DNA from: Streptomyces sp. NBC_00691 | GTDB lineage: Bacteria; Actinomycetota; Actinomycetes; Streptomycetales; Streptomycetaceae | Direction: 5' to 3' | DNA: 64,000 nt | NCBI RefSeq assembly: GCF_036226665.1 | Contig: NZ_CP109007.1 | Coordinates: forward strand, 434,001-498,000 | Part shown: one piece after another, positions 15,996-24,599 of the stretch | Numbering within the stretch: position 1 is the first letter of the stretch | Layout of the letters: every line of letters begins with the position of its first letter | Position numbers and translations under genes: made by a program | Notes under the pieces: model-generated | Told to the model about the DNA's origin: nothing | The model's input: the letters and a program-made list of their open reading frames with translations, nothing else | Databases searched by the model: none

Positions 15996-16090
15996 CCGGA
16001 CGTCCTTCCGCTCCCCCCGTACCCGCGTTCCCTCCGCACACCCGCACGCCGGGCCCCGGAGGCATGCCCGCACGCCCCCTGGAGATTCGT

Positions 16091-17497
16091 ATGTCCACGC
16101 CCCTGTCCCGCCGTGCCCTCGGCGGGGTCGCCGCCGGCGCCGCGGCCGCCGCCGCGCTCGGAGCCACCGCCCCCGCCGCACAGGCGGCGGCCACCGCGGC
16201 CGACCCGCGGGAGAGGCCCTTCCGCGCCGCGCACCCGCGCCGCCATTCCCGGCGGCCCAACATCCTCTTCATCCTGGGCGACGACCTCGGCTGGGCCGAC
16301 CTCTCCTCGTACGGCTCCCCGCACATCCGCACCCCCCACCTGGACCGCCTCGCCCGCGACGGCGTCCGCTTCACCGACGCCTACTCCGGCTCCGCCACCT
16401 GCTCCCCCACCCGATTCAGCCTCTACACCGGCCGCTACCCGGGCCGGACGAAGGGCGGACTGGCCGAGCCGATAGCCGACAGGTCCGTCGGCCTGGAACC
16501 CACCCATCCGACGCTCGCCTCACTCCTCCGGGACTCCGGCTACGCCACCGCCCTCATCGGCAAATGGCACTGCGGCTACCTGCCCGACTACTCCCCCACC
16601 CGTTCCGGATGGGACGAGTTCTTCGGCAACTTCGGTGGAGCCCTGGAGTACTACTCCAAGCTCGGCCTCGGCGGCGAGTACGACCTCTACGAGGGCGACG
16701 CCGAGTACAAGGACCTGCGCTACTACACCCGGATCCTCACCGAGCGCGCGAGCGAGTACGTCAGCCGCGACCACGACGAGCCCTGGCTGCTCAACCTGAA
16801 CTTCACCACCCCGCACTGGCCTTGGATCGCCGACGGAGACAAGGAGGCGAGCGACGAGATCGTCCGGCGCATCAAGGCCGGCGACCGCTCCGCCCTCTGG
16901 CACCAGGACGGCGGCTCCGTCGCGAAGTACCAGGAGATGGTCGAGGACCTCGACCGCTCGATCGGACAGGTCCTCAAGGCGCTGAAGCGCTCCGGCCAGG
17001 AGCAGGACACGCTCGTCTTCTTCGCCAGCGACAACGGCGGCGAGCGCTTCTCCTACAACTGGCCGCTCGCCGGCAACAAGGGCTCGCTCCAGGAGGGCGG
17101 CATCCGCGTGCCGTCGATCCTGCGCTGGCCCGCCAGGATCGACGGCGGCCAGGTCAGCGACCTGCCGGTGTTCTCGCCCGACTGGACGGCGACCCTGCTC
17201 GACCTGGCCGGGGCCCGCCCCCATCCCGCGTACCCCCTCGACGGCACCAGCATCGCCGGGCACCTGCTCCGCGGCGCCGACGTTCCCGAGCGGGATCTCT
17301 TCTGGCGGGTGCGGGGCGAGCGGGCGCTGCGCCGCGGCGACTGGAAGTACTACCGGGGCAAGTCCGGCCGCGACCAGCTCTTCGATCTGTCCGAGGACTC
17401 CCGTGAGCAGGCGGACCGGGCACCGTTCGAGCAGGCGCGACTCGCCGAGCTGCGGGCGGCCTGGGAACGGATCGACGCGGGGCTGCTCCGCTACTGA
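16091..17497 (+). CDS. Tat-exported sulfatase (formylglycine type)
   Basis: 468 residues from ATG 16091 with GGAG 6 bases upstream. The N-terminus is a twin-arginine signal (PLSRRALGGVAAGA, Ala-rich core to about residue 35). The sulfatase domain starts at RRPNILFILGDDLGWADLSSYG, whose Asp pair binds Ca. The active site is CSPTRFSLYTGRYPGR: Cys104 and Arg108 form C-x-P-x-R, where Cys is converted to formylglycine. KWHCGY and SDNGGE supply further metal and sulfate ligands. It should cleave sulfate esters outside the cell. No formylglycine-generating enzyme is in the window, so that must be elsewhere. Expression is probably controlled by the leader peptide upstream. Confidence 0.95.
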   Translation: MSTPLSRRALGGVAAGAAAAAALGATAPAAQAAATAADPRERPFRAAHPRRHSRRPNILFILGDDLGWADLSSYGSPHIRTPHLDRLARDGVRFTDAYSGSATCSPTRFSLYTGRYPGRTKGGLAEPIADRSVGLEPTHPTLASLLRDSGYATALIGKWHCGYLPDYSPTRSGWDEFFGNFGGALEYYSKLGLGGEYDLYEGDAEYKDLRYYTRILTERASEYVSRDHDEPWLLNLNFTTPHWPWIADGDKEASDEIVRRIKAGDRSALWHQDGGSVAKYQEMVEDLDRSIGQVLKALKRSGQEQDTLVFFASDNGGERFSYNWPLAGNKGSLQEGGIRVPSILRWPARIDGGQVSDLPVFSPDWTATLLDLAGARPHPAYPLDGTSIAGHLLRGADVPERDLFWRVRGERALRRGDWKYYRGKSGRDQLFDLSEDSREQADRAPFEQARLAELRAAWERIDAGLLRY

Positions 17498-17630: not shown

Positions 17631-18425
17631 ATGCTCATCGATCTGAGACGACGTACCGCGCTGGTCACCGGCTCCACCCAGGGGATCGGCGCCGCCATCG
17701 CCACCGGTCTGGCCCGGGCCGGAGCCCGCGTCGGCGTCAACGGGCGGACTCGGGAACGCGTCGAGCGGGCCGTCGCCCACCTGCGGGCCGAGGTCCCCGG
17801 CGCGGATCTGGTTCCGGTGGTCGCCGACGTCGCCACCGAGCAGGGCGCGCGGCTGGCCGCCGAGGTGCTGCCTCAGGTGGACATCCTGGTGAACAACCTC
17901 GGCGTCTTCGGCGAGGCCGACCCGCTGAAGATCAGCGACGACGAGTGGCGGCGCTACTTCGAGGTGAACGTCCTGGCCGCGGTGAGGCTCATCCGTCAGT
18001 ACCTTCCCGGCATGAGCGAGCGCGGCTGGGGGCGGATCCAGAACATCGCGAGCGACTCGGCCGTGGTGATCCCCGCCGAGATGATCCACTACGGCATGTC
18101 CAAGACAGCGCTTCTGGCGGTGACGCGCGGCTTCGCCAAGCAGGCGGCGGGGACGGGGGTCACCGTCAACTCCGTCATCGCCGGACCCACGCACACGGGC
18201 GGCGTGGAGCAGTTCGTGTACGAGCTGGTGGACCGCTCCCTGCCGTGGGACGAAGCACAACGCGTCTTCATGCGCGAGCACCGTCCGCAGTCCCTGCTGC
18301 AGCGGCTCATCGAGCCCGAGGAGATCGCCCACATGGTGGTCTACCTCGCCTCCCCGCAGGCGTCCGCCACCACCGGTGGCGCGCTGCGTGTGGACGGCGG
18401 GTACGTCGACTCCATCCTGCCGTAG
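17631..18425 (+). CDS. SDR-family NAD(P)-dependent oxidoreductase
   Basis: 264 residues. It is a classical short-chain dehydrogenase: cofactor motif TGSTQGIGAAIA near residue 13, NNLGVFGE, catalytic Ser in IASDSAVV, and YGMSKTALLAVTRGFAKQ with the Y-x-x-x-K pair. The C-terminal LASPQASATTGGALRVDGGY is typical. The Arg-rich segment after the glycine motif favours NADP. The substrate is unknown. It precedes the lanthipeptide synthetase on the same strand but is separated by about 225 bases and hairpins, so I do not count it in that cluster. Confidence 0.93.
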   Translation: MLIDLRRRTALVTGSTQGIGAAIATGLARAGARVGVNGRTRERVERAVAHLRAEVPGADLVPVVADVATEQGARLAAEVLPQVDILVNNLGVFGEADPLKISDDEWRRYFEVNVLAAVRLIRQYLPGMSERGWGRIQNIASDSAVVIPAEMIHYGMSKTALLAVTRGFAKQAAGTGVTVNSVIAGPTHTGGVEQFVYELVDRSLPWDEAQRVFMREHRPQSLLQRLIEPEEIAHMVVYLASPQASATTGGALRVDGGYVDSILP

Positions 18426-18430
18426 CGGAG

Positions 18431-18480
18431 GTACCGGCGCCGGGGGGCCGCCGCGGCCGGTACGGCGCGCCCTGGCGCGC
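18431..18480. terminator. Hairpins between the SDR and lanthipeptide genes
   Basis: GTACCGGC (18431-18438) pairs with GCCGGTAC (18456-18463), and directly after it GCGCGCC (18465-18471) pairs with GGCGCGC (18474-18480). They begin 5 bases past the SDR stop and probably end that transcript. Confidence 0.5.
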
Positions 18481-18651
18481 GGGCGCAGGGGCGTCGGTTC
18501 GTGAGCTTGCTTCTGCGCTGGGCGCACCTCTTGGCCGCGCCGTCGCGCTGTGCGCTCGCTGAATCAAGTGAATGCGGGCGGGGGCGTGTTGGTCCGCCGA
18601 TGTCGTCGGGAACCTTCTCGTCAGCGGACCTCACCGTCGAGAAGGAAGCCA

Positions 18652-21381
18652 ATGACGAGCCAGGTTACCGAAGTCGAACTGGAAGCCCTCCTCCACAAGG
18701 CGCTGCACGCCACGGGTACGGGCGCGCGCTGGTCGGCCGACTCGGACGAGATGTGGTGCCGTGTCACGCCCGAGTCGGGGACACGGCGTGAGCAGGGGTG
18801 GAAGCTGCATCTGTCGGCGACGGCCGCCTCCGCGCCGGCTGTCCTCGAGAAGGCCCTCGACGTGTTGCTCCGAGAGGAGTCGGCGTTCAAGTTCGCCCGG
18901 TCGCTCGACCAGGTGAGCGCGCTCAACTCCCGCGCCACGCCCCGGGGAAGCTCGGGCAAGTTCATCACCGTCTACCCGCGCTCCGACGCCGAGGCGGCCC
19001 GGCTCGCCCGCGAGCTGCACAGGGCCACGACGGGGCTGGCCGGCCCGCGGATCCTGTCCGACCAGCCGTACGCCGTGAACTCGCTGGTCCACTACCGGTA
19101 CGGCGCGTTCGTCGGCCGGAGGCGGCTCTCGGACGACGGTCTGCTGGTGTGGTTCATCGAGGACCCCGACGGCAATCCCGTGGAGGACAAGCGCACCGGC
19201 CAGTACTCTCCGCCCGCGTGGGCGGTCTCCCCCTTCCCTGCCACGGTCTCCGTCGTGCCGCGCGCGGCGGAGGGACAGGACGCGGCGGGAGGCACGGCCG
19301 CTCCGGTGCTGCTCGGTGGTCGTTTCGCGGTGCGGGAGGCGATCCGGCACACCAACAAGGGCGGCGTCTACCGGGGCCGCGACGTCCGTACGGACGCCCT
19401 CGTGGTGATCAAGGAAGCCCGGCCGCACGTGGAGGCCGACGCCTCCGGGTGCGACGTCCGTGACTGGCTGCGCGCCGAGGCCCGGACGCTGGAGAAGCTC
19501 AAGGGCACGGGACTGGCTCCGGAAGCGCTGGCGTTGTTCGAGCACGGCGGGCACCTCTTCCTGGCCCAGGAGGAGGTACCGGGCGTCACGCTGCGCACCT
19601 GGGTCGCCGAGCACTTCCGCGACGTCGGAGCGGAACGCTACCGGGTCGACGCCCTGGCCCAGGTCGAGCGTCTGGTCGAGCTGGTCGCCGCGGCCCACGC
19701 CCGAGGCTGTGTCCTGAGGGACTTCACACCCGGCAACGTCATGGTCCGCCCGGACGGCGAGCTGCGCCTGATCGACCTCGAACTCGCCGTCCTGGAGGAC
19801 GAGGCCGCCCTGCCGACCCGCGTGGGCACCCCCGGCTTCAGCGCCCCCGAGCGCCTGGCCGACGCACCCGTCAGTCCGACGGGCGACTACTACAGCCTCG
19901 GTGCCACGGTGTGCTTCGTCCTGGCCGGGAAGGTACCGAACCTGCTGCCCGAGGAGCCCGCCACCAGGACCGCGGAACAGCGGCTCGCCGACTGGCTGGC
20001 CGCCTGTACGGAGCCGCTCCGGCTGCCGGGCGACCTGGCGGCGACGGTCCTCGGGCTGATGAAGGACGACCCCGCCGAGCGGTGGGATCCCGACCGGGCG
20101 CGCGAGGCCCTCCGGCAGGCGGACCGGTCGCGGCCGCGGAGCCGCTCCGCACCGCGGGCGCCGCTGGACGACCGCCCCGACGGCAGCCTGGGCGAGGAGC
20201 GGCGCGACACGGCGGCGGGAATCGTGGACCAGGCGGTGGCGGGGATCGTGGACCATCTCGTCGCCTCGATGACGCCGGTGGACGAGGGCCGGCTGTGGCC
20301 CGTGTCCACCATGGCCGGGGAGACGGACCCCTGCACCGTGCAACAGGGCGCGGCCGGTGTCCTGGCCGTACTGACGCGGTACTGGGAGCTCACCGGTGAC
20401 GACCGCCTGCCCGAGGTGATCTCCACCGCGGGCCACTGGATCGCGGACCGCACCGACCTCCGCTCCACCCGCCCCGGTCTGCACTTCGGCGGACGCGGAA
20501 CGGCCTGGGCGCTGTACGACGCCGGGCGCGCCGTGGACGACCACGGGCTCATGGACCACGCGTCGGCTCTGGCGCTGGCTCCGCAGCAGTCGACACCCCA
20601 TCACGACATCACCCACGGCAGCGCGGGGAGCGGACTGGCCGCCGTCCATCTGTGGCACCGCACCGGTGATCCGCGCTTCGCCGAGCTGGCCGTCGACGCG
20701 GCCGACCGGCTCGTCGCCTCGGCGCAGCGCGGTGGGGACGGAGTGGGCTGGCCGGTACCCGCGGAGGCGGCCTCCCCGGACGGCGGCAATCGCTACCTCG
20801 GCTTCGCCCACGGAGCGGCCGGGATCGGCTGCTTCCTCCTCGCCGCCGCGACCGTCTCGCGGCGCCGGGAGCATCTGGACCTCGCGGTGGAGACCGGCGA
20901 ACACCTGCTGGCCCACGCCGTACTCACCGGCGAGGCCGCCCAGTGGCCCGCGCAGTCCGCGGACCCGCCCACGGCCCCGTACTGGTGCCACGGCTCGGCG
21001 GGCATCGGCACCTTCCTCGTCCGGTTGTGGCAGGCCACCGGGGACGACAGGTTCGGCGAACTCGCCCGCCGCAGCACCCATGCCGTCACCGAACGCGCCT
21101 CCCGCGCGGCCCTGGCCCAGTGCCACGGGCTCGCGGGCAACGGTGACTTCCTCCTCGACATGGCCGATGCCACGGGTGACCCCGTCCACCGGACCATGGC
21201 CGAGGACGTGGCCCGCCTCCTCGTCAGTGAGAGGGCCCACCGCCGCGCCCAGGTGGTCTTCCCCAACGAGTACGGGGACGTCTCGACCAGCTGGAGCGAC
21301 GGATCCGCCGGAATCCTGGCCTTCCTCCTGAGGATCCGGCACACAGACCCCCGGCACTGGATGGTCCAGCAGCCGGTCTGA
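18652..21381 (+). CDS. venL: Class IV lanthipeptide synthetase (LanL, VenL-like)
   Basis: 909 residues from ATG 18652, with GAAGGA just upstream. It has three domains in the LanL order. An N-terminal phosphothreonine/serine lyase region occupies about 1-200. A kinase lies at about 215-490, with VVIKEARP and RDFTPGNVMV around residue 357, and DLE in place of DFG. A LanC-like cyclase fills about 530-905. The cyclase keeps the zinc ligands Cys779 (YWCHGSAGIG), Cys824 and His825 (QCHGLAGNG). These ligands are lost in class III enzymes, so class IV is the right assignment. It should phosphorylate Ser/Thr of the precursor, eliminate phosphate, and close thioether rings with Cys. The precursor gene follows 45 bases later. 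Confidence 0.95.
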   Translation: MTSQVTEVELEALLHKALHATGTGARWSADSDEMWCRVTPESGTRREQGWKLHLSATAASAPAVLEKALDVLLREESAFKFARSLDQVSALNSRATPRGSSGKFITVYPRSDAEAARLARELHRATTGLAGPRILSDQPYAVNSLVHYRYGAFVGRRRLSDDGLLVWFIEDPDGNPVEDKRTGQYSPPAWAVSPFPATVSVVPRAAEGQDAAGGTAAPVLLGGRFAVREAIRHTNKGGVYRGRDVRTDALVVIKEARPHVEADASGCDVRDWLRAEARTLEKLKGTGLAPEALALFEHGGHLFLAQEEVPGVTLRTWVAEHFRDVGAERYRVDALAQVERLVELVAAAHARGCVLRDFTPGNVMVRPDGELRLIDLELAVLEDEAALPTRVGTPGFSAPERLADAPVSPTGDYYSLGATVCFVLAGKVPNLLPEEPATRTAEQRLADWLAACTEPLRLPGDLAATVLGLMKDDPAERWDPDRAREALRQADRSRPRSRSAPRAPLDDRPDGSLGEERRDTAAGIVDQAVAGIVDHLVASMTPVDEGRLWPVSTMAGETDPCTVQQGAAGVLAVLTRYWELTGDDRLPEVISTAGHWIADRTDLRSTRPGLHFGGRGTAWALYDAGRAVDDHGLMDHASALALAPQQSTPHHDITHGSAGSGLAAVHLWHRTGDPRFAELAVDAADRLVASAQRGGDGVGWPVPAEAASPDGGNRYLGFAHGAAGIGCFLLAAATVSRRREHLDLAVETGEHLLAHAVLTGEAAQWPAQSADPPTAPYWCHGSAGIGTFLVRLWQATGDDRFGELARRSTHAVTERASRAALAQCHGLAGNGDFLLDMADATGDPVHRTMAEDVARLLVSERAHRRAQVVFPNEYGDVSTSWSDGSAGILAFLLRIRHTDPRHWMVQQPV

Positions 21382-21426
21382 GCGGCAGCACGTCTGTCGC
21401 CAGCTCGCACAAAGAAGGAGAAACCC

Positions 21427-21582
21427 ATGGAGAACAACGAGATCGAACTGCTGGCCCGCCTCCACGCCCTTCCGGAGACCGACCCGGTCGGTGCCGACGG
21501 AGCGCCGTTCGCCGCGACGTGTGAGTGCGTCGGCCTGCTGACCCTCCTCAACACGGTCTGCATCGGCATCAGCTGCGCGTAG
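21427..21582 (+). CDS. venA: Class IV lanthipeptide precursor, venezuelin-like
   Basis: 51 residues, too short for most gene callers. GAAGGAG lies 6 bases before ATG 21427. The leader (MENNEIELLARLHALPETDP) has the ELLARLHALPE motif of this precursor group. The core region holds four Ser/Thr (T31, T39, T43, S49) and four Cys (C32, C34, C45, C50), as CECVGLLTLLNTVCIGISCA at the end. From memory the sequence is nearly that of venezuelin VenA, with about four changes, all in the leader half. The product should be a globular lanthipeptide with up to four thioether bridges. No leader peptidase gene is nearby. Confidence 0.95.
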   Translation: MENNEIELLARLHALPETDPVGADGAPFAATCECVGLLTLLNTVCIGISCA

Positions 21583-21595
21583 GACCGGCACCCAC

Positions 21596-21636
21596 CATCC
21601 GGCCGGCGGCCCACCCGGGAAGCCGCCGGCCGGATG
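21596..21636 (+). terminator. 15-bp hairpin between venA and venT
   Basis: CATCCGGCCGGCGGC (21596-21610) pairs perfectly with GCCGCCGGCCGGATG (21622-21636) across an 11-base loop, 13 bases after the precursor stop. It probably works as a partial terminator or 3' stabiliser, giving more precursor than transporter mRNA. Confidence 0.75.
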
Positions 21637-21671
21637 TCCCCAGGGCGAACCCGTAGACGAGGACCGACCCC

Positions 21672-22820
21672 ATGCAGCGACCCGCCGGTGCCGAGGACCG
21701 ATCAGACCCGATGCAGCCACCCGCCGGTGGCGACGAGCGCAGCCCCGCGACCCTCGTGACGGCCGCCGTCGCCGGTACGGCCGCCGCACCTCACGCTCCC
21801 GAGCCCGTGTACGCCATCAGCACACGCGGCCTGGTCAAGGGCTATCCGGGCCCGCACGGCACGACCACCCTCGCGGTACGCGGCCTGGACCTGGACGTGC
21901 CGCAGGGCGAGACCTTCGCCTTCCTGGGGCCCAACGGCGCGGGGAAGTCCACCACGATCGCCGTGCTCTGCGCCCTGGCCCGGCCCACCGCCGGTCACGC
22001 CGTCGTCGCCGGCGCCGACGTGCTCGGTCGGCCGCACGAGGTGCGGCGCCGGGTCGGCATGCTCTTCCAGCACAGTGCGCTGGACCCGGACCTCACGGCC
22101 GAACAGAACCTGTTCATCCACGCCCGCCTCTACGGGCTGTCCCGCCGCCGTACCCGATCGCGCGCCGCCGAGGTGCTCGAGACGGCCGGACTGGCCGACC
22201 GGCGGCGCTCCCCCGTACGCACCCTGTCCGGTGGCATGCGCCGCCGGCTGGAGATCGCCCGCGCTCTGCTGCACTCCCCCCGTGTGCTGTTCCTGGACGA
22301 GCCGACCACCGGACTCGACCCGCACGCCCGCGCCCGGGTCTGGGAGCATCTGCGCGCGCTGCGCGACCGGGACGGCAGCACGCTCTTCGTCACCACCCAC
22401 TACCTGGACGAGGCGGAGAACTGTGACCGCATCGCCATCATCGACCGCGGCCGCATTGTGGCGCGGGGCACGCCCCTCGCACTGAAGGCCGCGATCGGCG
22501 ACGACCTGGTCGTCCTGCGTACCGGCGACGACACGGCGGCACGACGGGTCGCGCGCGGCGTCGTTCCGCCGGACCGCGCCGTGACCGCGGACGCCGACGG
22601 AGTCTCCCTGCGGGTACCGGACGGCAGCACCTGGATCCCGCGCCTCTGCGCGGCCCTGCAACGCCACGGCATCGCCGTCCACGCCGCTTCCGCGGCCCCG
22701 CCCACGCTCGACGACGTCTTCTTCCACCACACCGGCCGCAGTCTCGACACCACCGGGCGCCGCCCCGCCGACCCCGTGCCCGCGTGCGCGAGCACGCCGG
22801 AAGCCGGTGGTCACCGATGA
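21672..22820 (+). CDS. venT: Lanthipeptide ABC transporter, ATP-binding protein
   Basis: 382 residues from ATG 21672 (GAGGA 8 bases upstream). It is a DrrA-type ATPase: Walker A GPNGAGKSTT, Q-loop in MLFQHSALDPDLTAEQNL, signature LSGGMRRRLEIARALL, Walker B VLFLDEPTTGLD, and switch His in VTTHYLDEAE. A C-terminal extension of about 100 residues is usual for this subgroup. The N-terminal 45 residues are extra and contain a repeated MQxPAG segment, so the native start may be further in. It should energise export of the lanthipeptide together with the next gene, which overlaps it by four bases. Confidence 0.93.
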   Translation: MQRPAGAEDRSDPMQPPAGGDERSPATLVTAAVAGTAAAPHAPEPVYAISTRGLVKGYPGPHGTTTLAVRGLDLDVPQGETFAFLGPNGAGKSTTIAVLCALARPTAGHAVVAGADVLGRPHEVRRRVGMLFQHSALDPDLTAEQNLFIHARLYGLSRRRTRSRAAEVLETAGLADRRRSPVRTLSGGMRRRLEIARALLHSPRVLFLDEPTTGLDPHARARVWEHLRALRDRDGSTLFVTTHYLDEAENCDRIAIIDRGRIVARGTPLALKAAIGDDLVVLRTGDDTAARRVARGVVPPDRAVTADADGVSLRVPDGSTWIPRLCAALQRHGIAVHAASAAPPTLDDVFFHHTGRSLDTTGRRPADPVPACASTPEAGGHR

Positions 22821-23725
22821 CGGACCTCACCGTCAGGACACCGGGCACGGCCGACGTTCCGGACGGCCCCGGTGTCCCGGGCGCTCCGCACGGCTCCGGC
22901 ATCCGCGGCAGCGGGCGGGCCGCCCGTCTCCGGCACGAACTGCGCGCGGTCCACGCCCTGGTCCACCGCGACCTGCTGCGCCTGGCGGGCCAGCGCACCC
23001 ACACCGCGCTGATGCTGCTCCACCCGATGCTCTACCTCCTCGTCCTGGGAGGCGGGCTGGCCGCCCTCATCCCCCGTTCCTCCCTGGGCGTCGGCTACCA
23101 GACCTACCTCTTCCCCGGCATGTTGATGATGACGGTGCAGACGCCGGCCATCATGGTCGGCATCCGGCTGATCACCGACCGGCAGAGCGGCTACGTGCGG
23201 GAGCTCCTCATGGCCCCCGTCAGCCGCGCCACCCTCCTCCTGGGGCACTGCGCGGGCGGCACCATGACGGCCACGGCGCAGGGCGCCGTGCTGCTGAGCC
23301 TCATCGGTGTGGTCGGCCTGCCCTACGACCCGCTCCTCCTGGTCCTGCTCCTCGGCGGCATGATCCTGGCCTCGTTCACCATCACCGCCCTGGCCCTGAC
23401 CCTGGCCGTGTCCCTCCGCCGGGCGGAGACGTTCCACACGCTCCTCGGCGTGGTCATGATGCCGCTGCTGTTCCTCTCCGGCGGCTTCTTCCCGCTGCAC
23501 TCCCTGCCCGGCTGGGCCCACGCCCTCGCCGCCGCCAACCCGCTCGCCTACGCGGTGGACCTGCTCCGCCGCTGCGTCACCCATCGCGTGCCCGGCCCGC
23601 AGGCCGCCTCCGGCATCGAATGGGCAGGCCGGCAGCCGCCCCTCCCTCTCGAAGCCGGTCTTCTCCTCGCCACCGGCGTCCTCGCCCTGCTCTGGGCCGC
23701 GCGACGCTTCAACCGTCCGGAGTGA
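22817..23725 (+). CDS. venH: Lanthipeptide ABC transporter, ABC-2 permease
   Basis: 302 residues from ATG 22817, which overlaps the venT stop as ATGA, so translation is coupled. About six membrane helices follow a 60-residue cytosolic N-terminus: LMLLHPMLYLLVLGGGLAAL, then YLFPGMLMMTVQTPAIMVG, the middle helices, MPLLFLSGGFFPLHSLP and LLLATGVLALLWAA. NPLAYAVDLLR is the usual ABC-2 motif. It should form the export channel with VenT. The gene ends 19 bases from a convergent transporter gene, closing the cluster. Confidence 0.92.
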   Translation: MTDLTVRTPGTADVPDGPGVPGAPHGSGIRGSGRAARLRHELRAVHALVHRDLLRLAGQRTHTALMLLHPMLYLLVLGGGLAALIPRSSLGVGYQTYLFPGMLMMTVQTPAIMVGIRLITDRQSGYVRELLMAPVSRATLLLGHCAGGTMTATAQGAVLLSLIGVVGLPYDPLLLVLLLGGMILASFTITALALTLAVSLRRAETFHTLLGVVMMPLLFLSGGFFPLHSLPGWAHALAAANPLAYAVDLLRRCVTHRVPGPQAASGIEWAGRQPPLPLEAGLLLATGVLALLWAARRFNRPE

Positions 23726-23744
23726 CCCGGCGCGCCGGTCGTGA

Positions 23745-24599
23745 TCAGGTCGTGCCGACTCCGCCGCGAGCCAGCGTGAACACCCCGGCGACGATCAGTG
23801 CCACCCCCGCGAGCTGGGGCAGCAGCCACCAGCCCGCCCGTACGTGCTCCTCGTACAGCAGGACGCCGAGGCACAGGCTCACGGTGGCGTCGCCGAGGGT
23901 CAGGGCGGGCTGCGAGGCGACGAGCGGACCTCCCTGCATGGCGTGTTCGAGCAGCAGGAGGGCCGCGATACCCGCCGCGCCGAAGGCATAGGTCTGCCAG
24001 GCCGTCAGGAAGGCGCCGATGCCGCCGTCGCCGAGGATGTGCATGGACGTCTTCATGAGGGCGGCGGTCAGGGCGTAGCAGATCGCCGTCGCGGCCCCGA
24101 GACAGCCGGCCCTCGCGCGCCCGGCCGGTCGGCGGAGTCCGACGACGGTGAGGGCCACCACGGCGACGGCGCAGGCCACCAGCACCGGAACCCAGCGGTC
24201 CACCGCCACATGGGTGCGGTTGCCGGTGGGCGAGGCGGCCATGAGCGCCACGCCGAGGCCGAGCACGACCCCGGCCACGGCGGCCCAGAGCCGGACGGGC
24301 AGTCGTTCCCGCGTCAGAAGGGTGGCGATCAGCAGGGCGAGGGGGAGTTCGAGGACGAAGAGCGGCTGTACGAGGGCCAGCGGCCCGGTCGCGAGGGCCG
24401 CCGCCTGTCCGACACCGGCCGCGATGACGGCGAGGATGCCGGCCAGCCACAGGGGACGGTGGAGCAGGTCGAGGATCAGTCCGGGCCGGAAGGAGTCGGA
24501 CTGCGGGACGGTGAGCGCCGCACGCCGCTGGAGCACCGTGGCCAGCGCGTTGCTGAACGCGGCGAACAGCGAGAAGAGGACCGGCAGGACGATGCCCAT
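23745..24599 (-). CDS. DMT/EamA-type membrane transporter
   Basis: 284 residues from ATG 24599 (GAGGA 7 bases upstream). About ten hydrophobic segments follow each other from the first residue (IVLPVLFSLFAAFSNALATVLQRRAAL). The pattern is that of the DMT/EamA superfamily with an internal duplication; GPLALVQPLFVLELPLALL and the late LGVLLYEEHVRAGWWLLPQLAGVALI are typical. The substrate is unknown; small metabolite efflux is possible. It converges on the lanthipeptide permease and is divergent from the PAS-phosphatase locus. Confidence 0.88.
   Translation of the reverse strand: MGIVLPVLFSLFAAFSNALATVLQRRAALTVPQSDSFRPGLILDLLHRPLWLAGILAVIAAGVGQAAALATGPLALVQPLFVLELPLALLIATLLTRERLPVRLWAAVAGVVLGLGVALMAASPTGNRTHVAVDRWVPVLVACAVAVVALTVVGLRRPAGRARAGCLGAATAICYALTAALMKTSMHILGDGGIGAFLTAWQTYAFGAAGIAALLLLEHAMQGGPLVASQPALTLGDATVSLCLGVLLYEEHVRAGWWLLPQLAGVALIVAGVFTLARGGVGTT

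Follow-up and report, generated by a model that had tools for sequence, protein, structure and literature searches.

The genome of Streptomyces sp. NBC_00691 (8.33 Mb, two contigs) contains a 64,000-nucleotide stretch (G000:C1:434001-498000, hereafter the window) in which a synthetase gene, a very short gene and an ABC transporter gene pair follow one another. The locus raises the question of whether these genes form a complete class IV lanthipeptide cluster, which peptide they would make, and whether the cluster is still in use. The original prediction called class IV the least common lanthipeptide type, which agrees with the 815 class IV clusters counted in 2020, compared with 2753, 3708 and 2377 for classes I-III (PMC7268733). 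The four-gene ven cluster has already been described, with venezuelin known since 2010 (PMC2843593), and the finding in the window is a correct rediscovery.

Gene layout of the locus

An intact venL-venA-venT-venH operon occupies positions 18652-23725 of the window, and all four frames are open (Table 1). The cluster is not a chance arrangement, because LanL and VenA both score far above their NCBIfam cut-offs and venL, venA and venT recur jointly in 51 related loci; this confirms the predicted complete cluster with the order LanL, precursor, ABC pair. The venT product matches its DrrA-type model with 316.3 bits (cut-off 312.45), and the venH product matches TIGR01247 with 148.2 bits, under the cut-off of 223.05. 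The venH gene may start at the ATG that overlaps the venT stop codon as ATGA, and a longer reading frame begins at the upstream GTG. A pattern scan of positions 18300-24000 found neither sigma-70-type promoters nor T-tailed terminators; its loop range of 3-8 nt leaves the 11-nt-loop hairpin of Table 1 out of range.

Table 1. Features of the ven operon, with positions in the window.
Feature	Position	Strand	Basis
venL orthologue, class IV lanthionine synthetase LanL, 909 aa, lyase/kinase/zinc cyclase	18652..21381	+	NF038150, Pfam, C779/C824/H825
venA Shine-Dalgarno site GAAGGAG	21414..21420	+	sequence; recurrence upstream of venA in relatives
venA orthologue, 51-aa precursor, leader 1-29, core 30-51	21427..21582	+	NF038147, comparison with VenA of G015
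venA Leu15 codon CTT, rare	21469..21471	+	codon counts, 42/50 precursor genes
venA-venT intercistronic hairpin, perfect 15-bp stem, 11-nt loop, GC-rich	21596..21636	+	window sequence; covariation in 24 stem-bearing loci
venT orthologue, ABC transporter ATPase, DrrA type	21672..22820	+	TIGR01188
venH orthologue, ABC-2 permease, DrrB-like	22817..23725 (alternative GTG start 22784)	+	PF01061, PF12698

The synthetase VenL

VenL scores 1223.6 bits on the NCBIfam class IV LanL equivalog NF038150 (cut-off 650) and contains the Pfam domains RamC_N (lyase region), Pkinase and LANC_like. The residues C779, C824 and H825 lie within two CHG motifs and are identical in all 52 aligned synthetases (the window and 51 relatives, one row being fragmentary and gapped at position 356). 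From LanC enzymes, we take these three residues to be the zinc ligands. The lyase, kinase and zinc-bearing cyclase attributed to this protein from its sequence were thus all found, with the residues at the predicted places.

In a quick tree of 25 rows (VenL of the window, 10 LanL loci out of 51, and 14 further sequences), VenL lies among the LanL proteins, and SH-aLRT support is 100 for the LanL clade (13 rows) and also for the larger side containing it (17 rows). The opposite clade consists of eight sequences without a CHG motif, the LanKC-like gene of the host genome among them. The tree program flagged long branches separating the two halves, and L096, a long-branched sequence without a zinc motif, also stands on the LanL side, so that tree placement alone is weak evidence. 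Among solved structures, 8car is the closest to VenL by sequence (E 5.6e-88); the next entries carry the name class III LanKC. On the family scores and with the tree, in which VenL did not group with class III, we assign the cluster to class IV.

The precursor VenA and its predicted product

The window VenA scores 93.8 bits on the VenA family model NF038147 (cut-off 35). As predicted, it is a 51-residue precursor with four cysteines (32, 34, 45 and 50) and four hydroxyl residues (Thr31, Thr39, Thr43 and Ser49) in its core. The published venezuelin rings are Cys34-Dhb39, Cys45-Dha49, Cys32-Dhb43 and Cys50-Dhb31, with a presumed leader cut between Ala29 and Ala30 (PMC2843593), and the ring residues and cut site have the same numbers in the window VenA as in the text of that paper.

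For a residue-by-residue comparison we used the VenA of G015, a genome whose venA lies at position 719541, inside the interval 716117-728969 given for the venezuelin region of S. venezuelae NRRL B-65442 (PMC8788739); from this position we infer that G015 is S. venezuelae. Its VenL is 81% identical to that of the window, and its upstream sulfatase gene 95%. The 22-residue cores of the two VenA peptides are identical, and the leaders differ at four positions (N4/H, E5/D, R11/H, A23/V). The expectation of a VenA differing in a few leader residues, and of a product that is venezuelin or nearly so, is therefore borne out for G015 VenA and the residue numbers in the text of PMC2843593, the two references against which core identity was judged; a core strongly unlike VenA was not what we found. 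Because the core is identical to that of G015 VenA, the predicted product should be venezuelin itself.

Distribution and conservation of the locus

Of the 392 genomes sampled from the genus, 45 (approximately one in nine) carry a VenA-type precursor; none of the 14 control genomes does. Sampled over the phylum, LanL above the cut-off was present in 3 of 396 genomes among the matches listed, the window's own genome included; the weaker LanL matches among those listed mostly cover the kinase part alone. Locus sequences were retrieved for 30 of 46 VenA matches in the genus. Three of these 30 loci (L067, L088 and L090) score above the VenA cut-off without the otherwise fixed ALPETDP leader motif; they are the 3 of 81 loci lacking the exact search motif and were excluded from later sets.

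The genes venL, venA and venT occur together in 51/51 related loci, and venH in 50/51. In the single exception (L015), venH was not found and venT is disrupted, containing an inverted piece; with 103 N in its scaffold, this locus looks like an assembly fault. The surroundings recur far less: the flanking sulfatase gene and the downstream transporter gene are each present in 5/51 loci, and SDR matches in 11/51, five of them only 27-37% identical. Since the ven genes recur while their flanks mostly do not, the four genes form a unit.

The sulfatase-like gene upstream of venL (16064-17497) is 95-96% identical in five near relatives and G015, with no match in the 46 remaining loci, a set that includes loci with short flanks. 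A record labelled Microtetraspora glauca NRRL B-3735 (L031) was considered as a sign of transfer outside Streptomycetaceae and rejected as evidence; it is probably mislabelled, because its left flank and the first part of its cluster are 89-90% identical to a Streptomyces locus (L032).

Precursor conservation and expression

Selection on the precursor was assessed in 50 of 52 sequences, those aligned over all 51 residues (L014 and L020, with 50 aa, were left out). Thr31, Thr39, Thr43 and the four cysteines are invariant, and residue 49 is Ser in 49 precursors and Thr in one. Leader residues 12-20 are likewise invariant and probably form the region bound by LanL, while several residues between 22 and 30 vary freely. 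The ratio pN/pS is lowest in residues 12-21 (0.02), followed by the core (residues 30-51; 0.27), residues 1-11 (0.47) and residues 22-29 (0.66). This pattern speaks for a maintained product, and the fixed or nearly fixed ring residues and leader stretch argue for a useful function of the peptide in the genomes that carry it.

In S. venezuelae, neither single deletions nor a strong promoter produced a phenotype or a peptide; deletion of venA or venL left growth, development and one antibiotic test strain unaffected, and the peptides made in vitro were inactive against three strains (PMC2843593). Venezuelin also went undetected in later S. venezuelae metabolomics, according to the text of PMC9769785. 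The venezuelin genes are reported to be down-regulated in phage-infected S. venezuelae (PMC10117723), a sign of some expression in that species. The consulted text of the papers on Lsr2 and AdpA regulation (PMC6584129, PMC12466573) places few changed genes and no binding site in the venezuelin region.

Alternative readings of the locus

Several other readings of the cluster have to be weighed against these data. A class III cluster of the labionin or SapB type, with a cyclase lacking the zinc site, is exceedingly improbable. VenL does match the class III LanKC equivalog as well, with 530.1 bits, but this falls short of the cut-off of 575, whereas the class IV score is 1223.6; VenL also has the zinc motifs, and the eight sequences of the other clade show no CHG motif. 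Class III membership was rejected on the model scores and zinc motifs, with the tree in support, and the scores outweigh the tree because of the long-branch warning and the placement of L096. Within class IV, a cluster of the streptocollin or SflA type would make a product other than venezuelin. Variation in the family is real, as core variants are found in many relatives (residue 33, for instance, is Ala for Glu in 16/50), but all 22 core residues of the window equal those of G015 VenA, which makes this reading highly improbable.

It is also conceivable that the cluster is a decayed or silent relic that is no longer used, for which the failure of S. venezuelae to show a product or phenotype under the tested conditions (PMC2843593) could be taken as a sign. 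Against this stand the four open frames, the rarity of nonsynonymous relative to synonymous change in the precursor, both in the core and above all in residues 12-21, and the reported down-regulation on phage infection, which implies some expression in S. venezuelae (PMC10117723). We consider a relic very unlikely, and a maintained venezuelin cluster the better account.

The hairpin between venA and venT

Of 52 loci, 41 have a perfect stem of 9 bp or longer no more than 100 nt from the venA stop codon, and 11 have none; in single-base shuffles, the longest stem is on average approximately 5 to 7. Some of the 41 stem-bearing loci look unrelated in sequence. In an alignment of 24 of the 52 loci, every one picked from the 41 with a stem of at least 9, compensatory changes occur at 10 of the 15 pairs and 95.6% of cells pair. 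None of 500 shuffles reached any of five measures, in a comparison that partly favours the structure, as it was predicted from the same alignment. No T tract follows the hairpin in the window, and Rfam gave no match in the window at the gathering threshold.

Stabilising or attenuating hairpins after lanA genes are familiar from other lantibiotic operons. The hairpin downstream of venA probably sets the ratio of venA to venTH.

The rare leader codon and the Shine-Dalgarno site

Leader residue Leu15 is encoded by CTT in 42 of 50 precursor genes; in venL, venT and venH, this codon accounts for 1.9% of the Leu codons. Those three genes have 858 conserved columns, none of which is dominated to this degree by a codon of less than 10% usage, the best reaching 34/50 (codon analyses used 51 of the 52 synthetase rows). 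In 57 of 65 distinct sequences, the window among them, an exact GAAGGAG lies in the 20 nt preceding venA.

A pairing of CTT at codon 15 with this Shine-Dalgarno site is possible, and the folding evidence for it is mixed. Over the 65 sequences, the modelled pairing of the Shine-Dalgarno site is 0.33 for the native codon, 0.34 for CTT, 0.14 for CTC and 0.02 for CTG, and the site is less accessible than in the median synonymous shuffle in 49/65 (mean z -0.88). The specific pairing is absent from the consensus fold of 18 relatives (an alignment of 18/52) and from the minimum-energy fold of the window. The likely copy from the published species (L075) has CTC at codon 15, which counts against occlusion of the Shine-Dalgarno site.

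Taken together, these features could reflect an undescribed control of ven genes at the RNA level, in which the hairpin would fix how much precursor is made relative to transporter, and CTT would be under selection, through either a translational pause or pairing with the venA ribosome-binding site. We put this combined proposal forward tentatively and regard it as rather doubtful. Both elements offer simple handles on the question of why venezuelin is not seen in its native host.

Proposed biosynthesis and export

We propose that the window holds the entire ven cluster in orthologous form, in which VenL would convert VenA to four-ring venezuelin, VenTH would serve export or self-protection, and a protease from outside the cluster would act on the leader; on the sequence comparisons above, this is almost certainly the correct reading. 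The chemistry of VenL and VenA was demonstrated in vitro for S. venezuelae (PMC2843593) and is transferred to the window by orthology. VenL would phosphorylate Thr31, Thr39, Thr43 and Ser49 of VenA and eliminate the phosphates, and would then add Cys32, Cys34, Cys45 and Cys50 to the dehydrated residues. The DrrAB-type ABC pair VenTH probably exports the peptide or protects the producer, and the hairpin 3' of venA would probably give more venA transcript than venTH transcript.

Removal of the leader would fall to a protease encoded elsewhere in the genome, as for another class IV peptide with an AplP-like leader protease of the M1 family outside its cluster (PMC10885120). The host genome has seven Peptidase_M1 matches, four of them in frames of 479-529 aa, none of which is singled out for VenA.

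Comparison with known systems

The LanKC-like gene of the host (G000:C1:8122274-8124721) represents class III and shares the lyase-kinase-cyclase layout with VenL, but lacks the CHG zinc motifs and falls in a separate clade. Besides this synthetase, the host genome contains two further long LANC_like frames, giving three matches (L115, L116 and L117; G000:C1 near 8122274, 7752902 and 1024359). The SflA system resembles the window cluster in being class IV and in having its AplP-like protease of the M1 family outside the cluster (PMC10885120); its rings are non-overlapping, according to the title of Ren et al. 2020, which sets it apart from venezuelin.

S. clavuligerus has a ven-type locus at NZ_CP027859.1 654140-664902 (L113), whose LanL is 74% identical to VenL over 909 residues and groups with the LanL proteins in the tree. 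It differs from the window cluster in lying on the 1.8-Mb linear plasmid pCLA1 and in being more distant. The VenA homologue SclA of S. clavuligerus is mentioned in PMC2843593, and the pCLA1 locus would be the one encoding it. The incomplete PLSDB gene table for pCLA1 shows no feature at 654140-664902.

The closest counterpart is the S. venezuelae ven cluster, which shares the order L-A-T-H, the three-domain LanL and, as the cluster is described in PMC2843593, the absence of a protease or regulator; by way of G015, it also has the identical 22-residue core. The window cluster differs from it in four leader residues and in a VenL that is approximately 81% identical to the G015 copy. The conserved hairpin and the conserved rare CTT codon are small additions to this known cluster: neither is mentioned in the main text of PMC2843593, where the words hairpin, terminator, stem and inverted repeat are absent. 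The value of the finding is modest and comparative: the pattern over 50 precursors argues for a useful peptide in the carriers, approximately one in nine of the genomes sampled from the genus.
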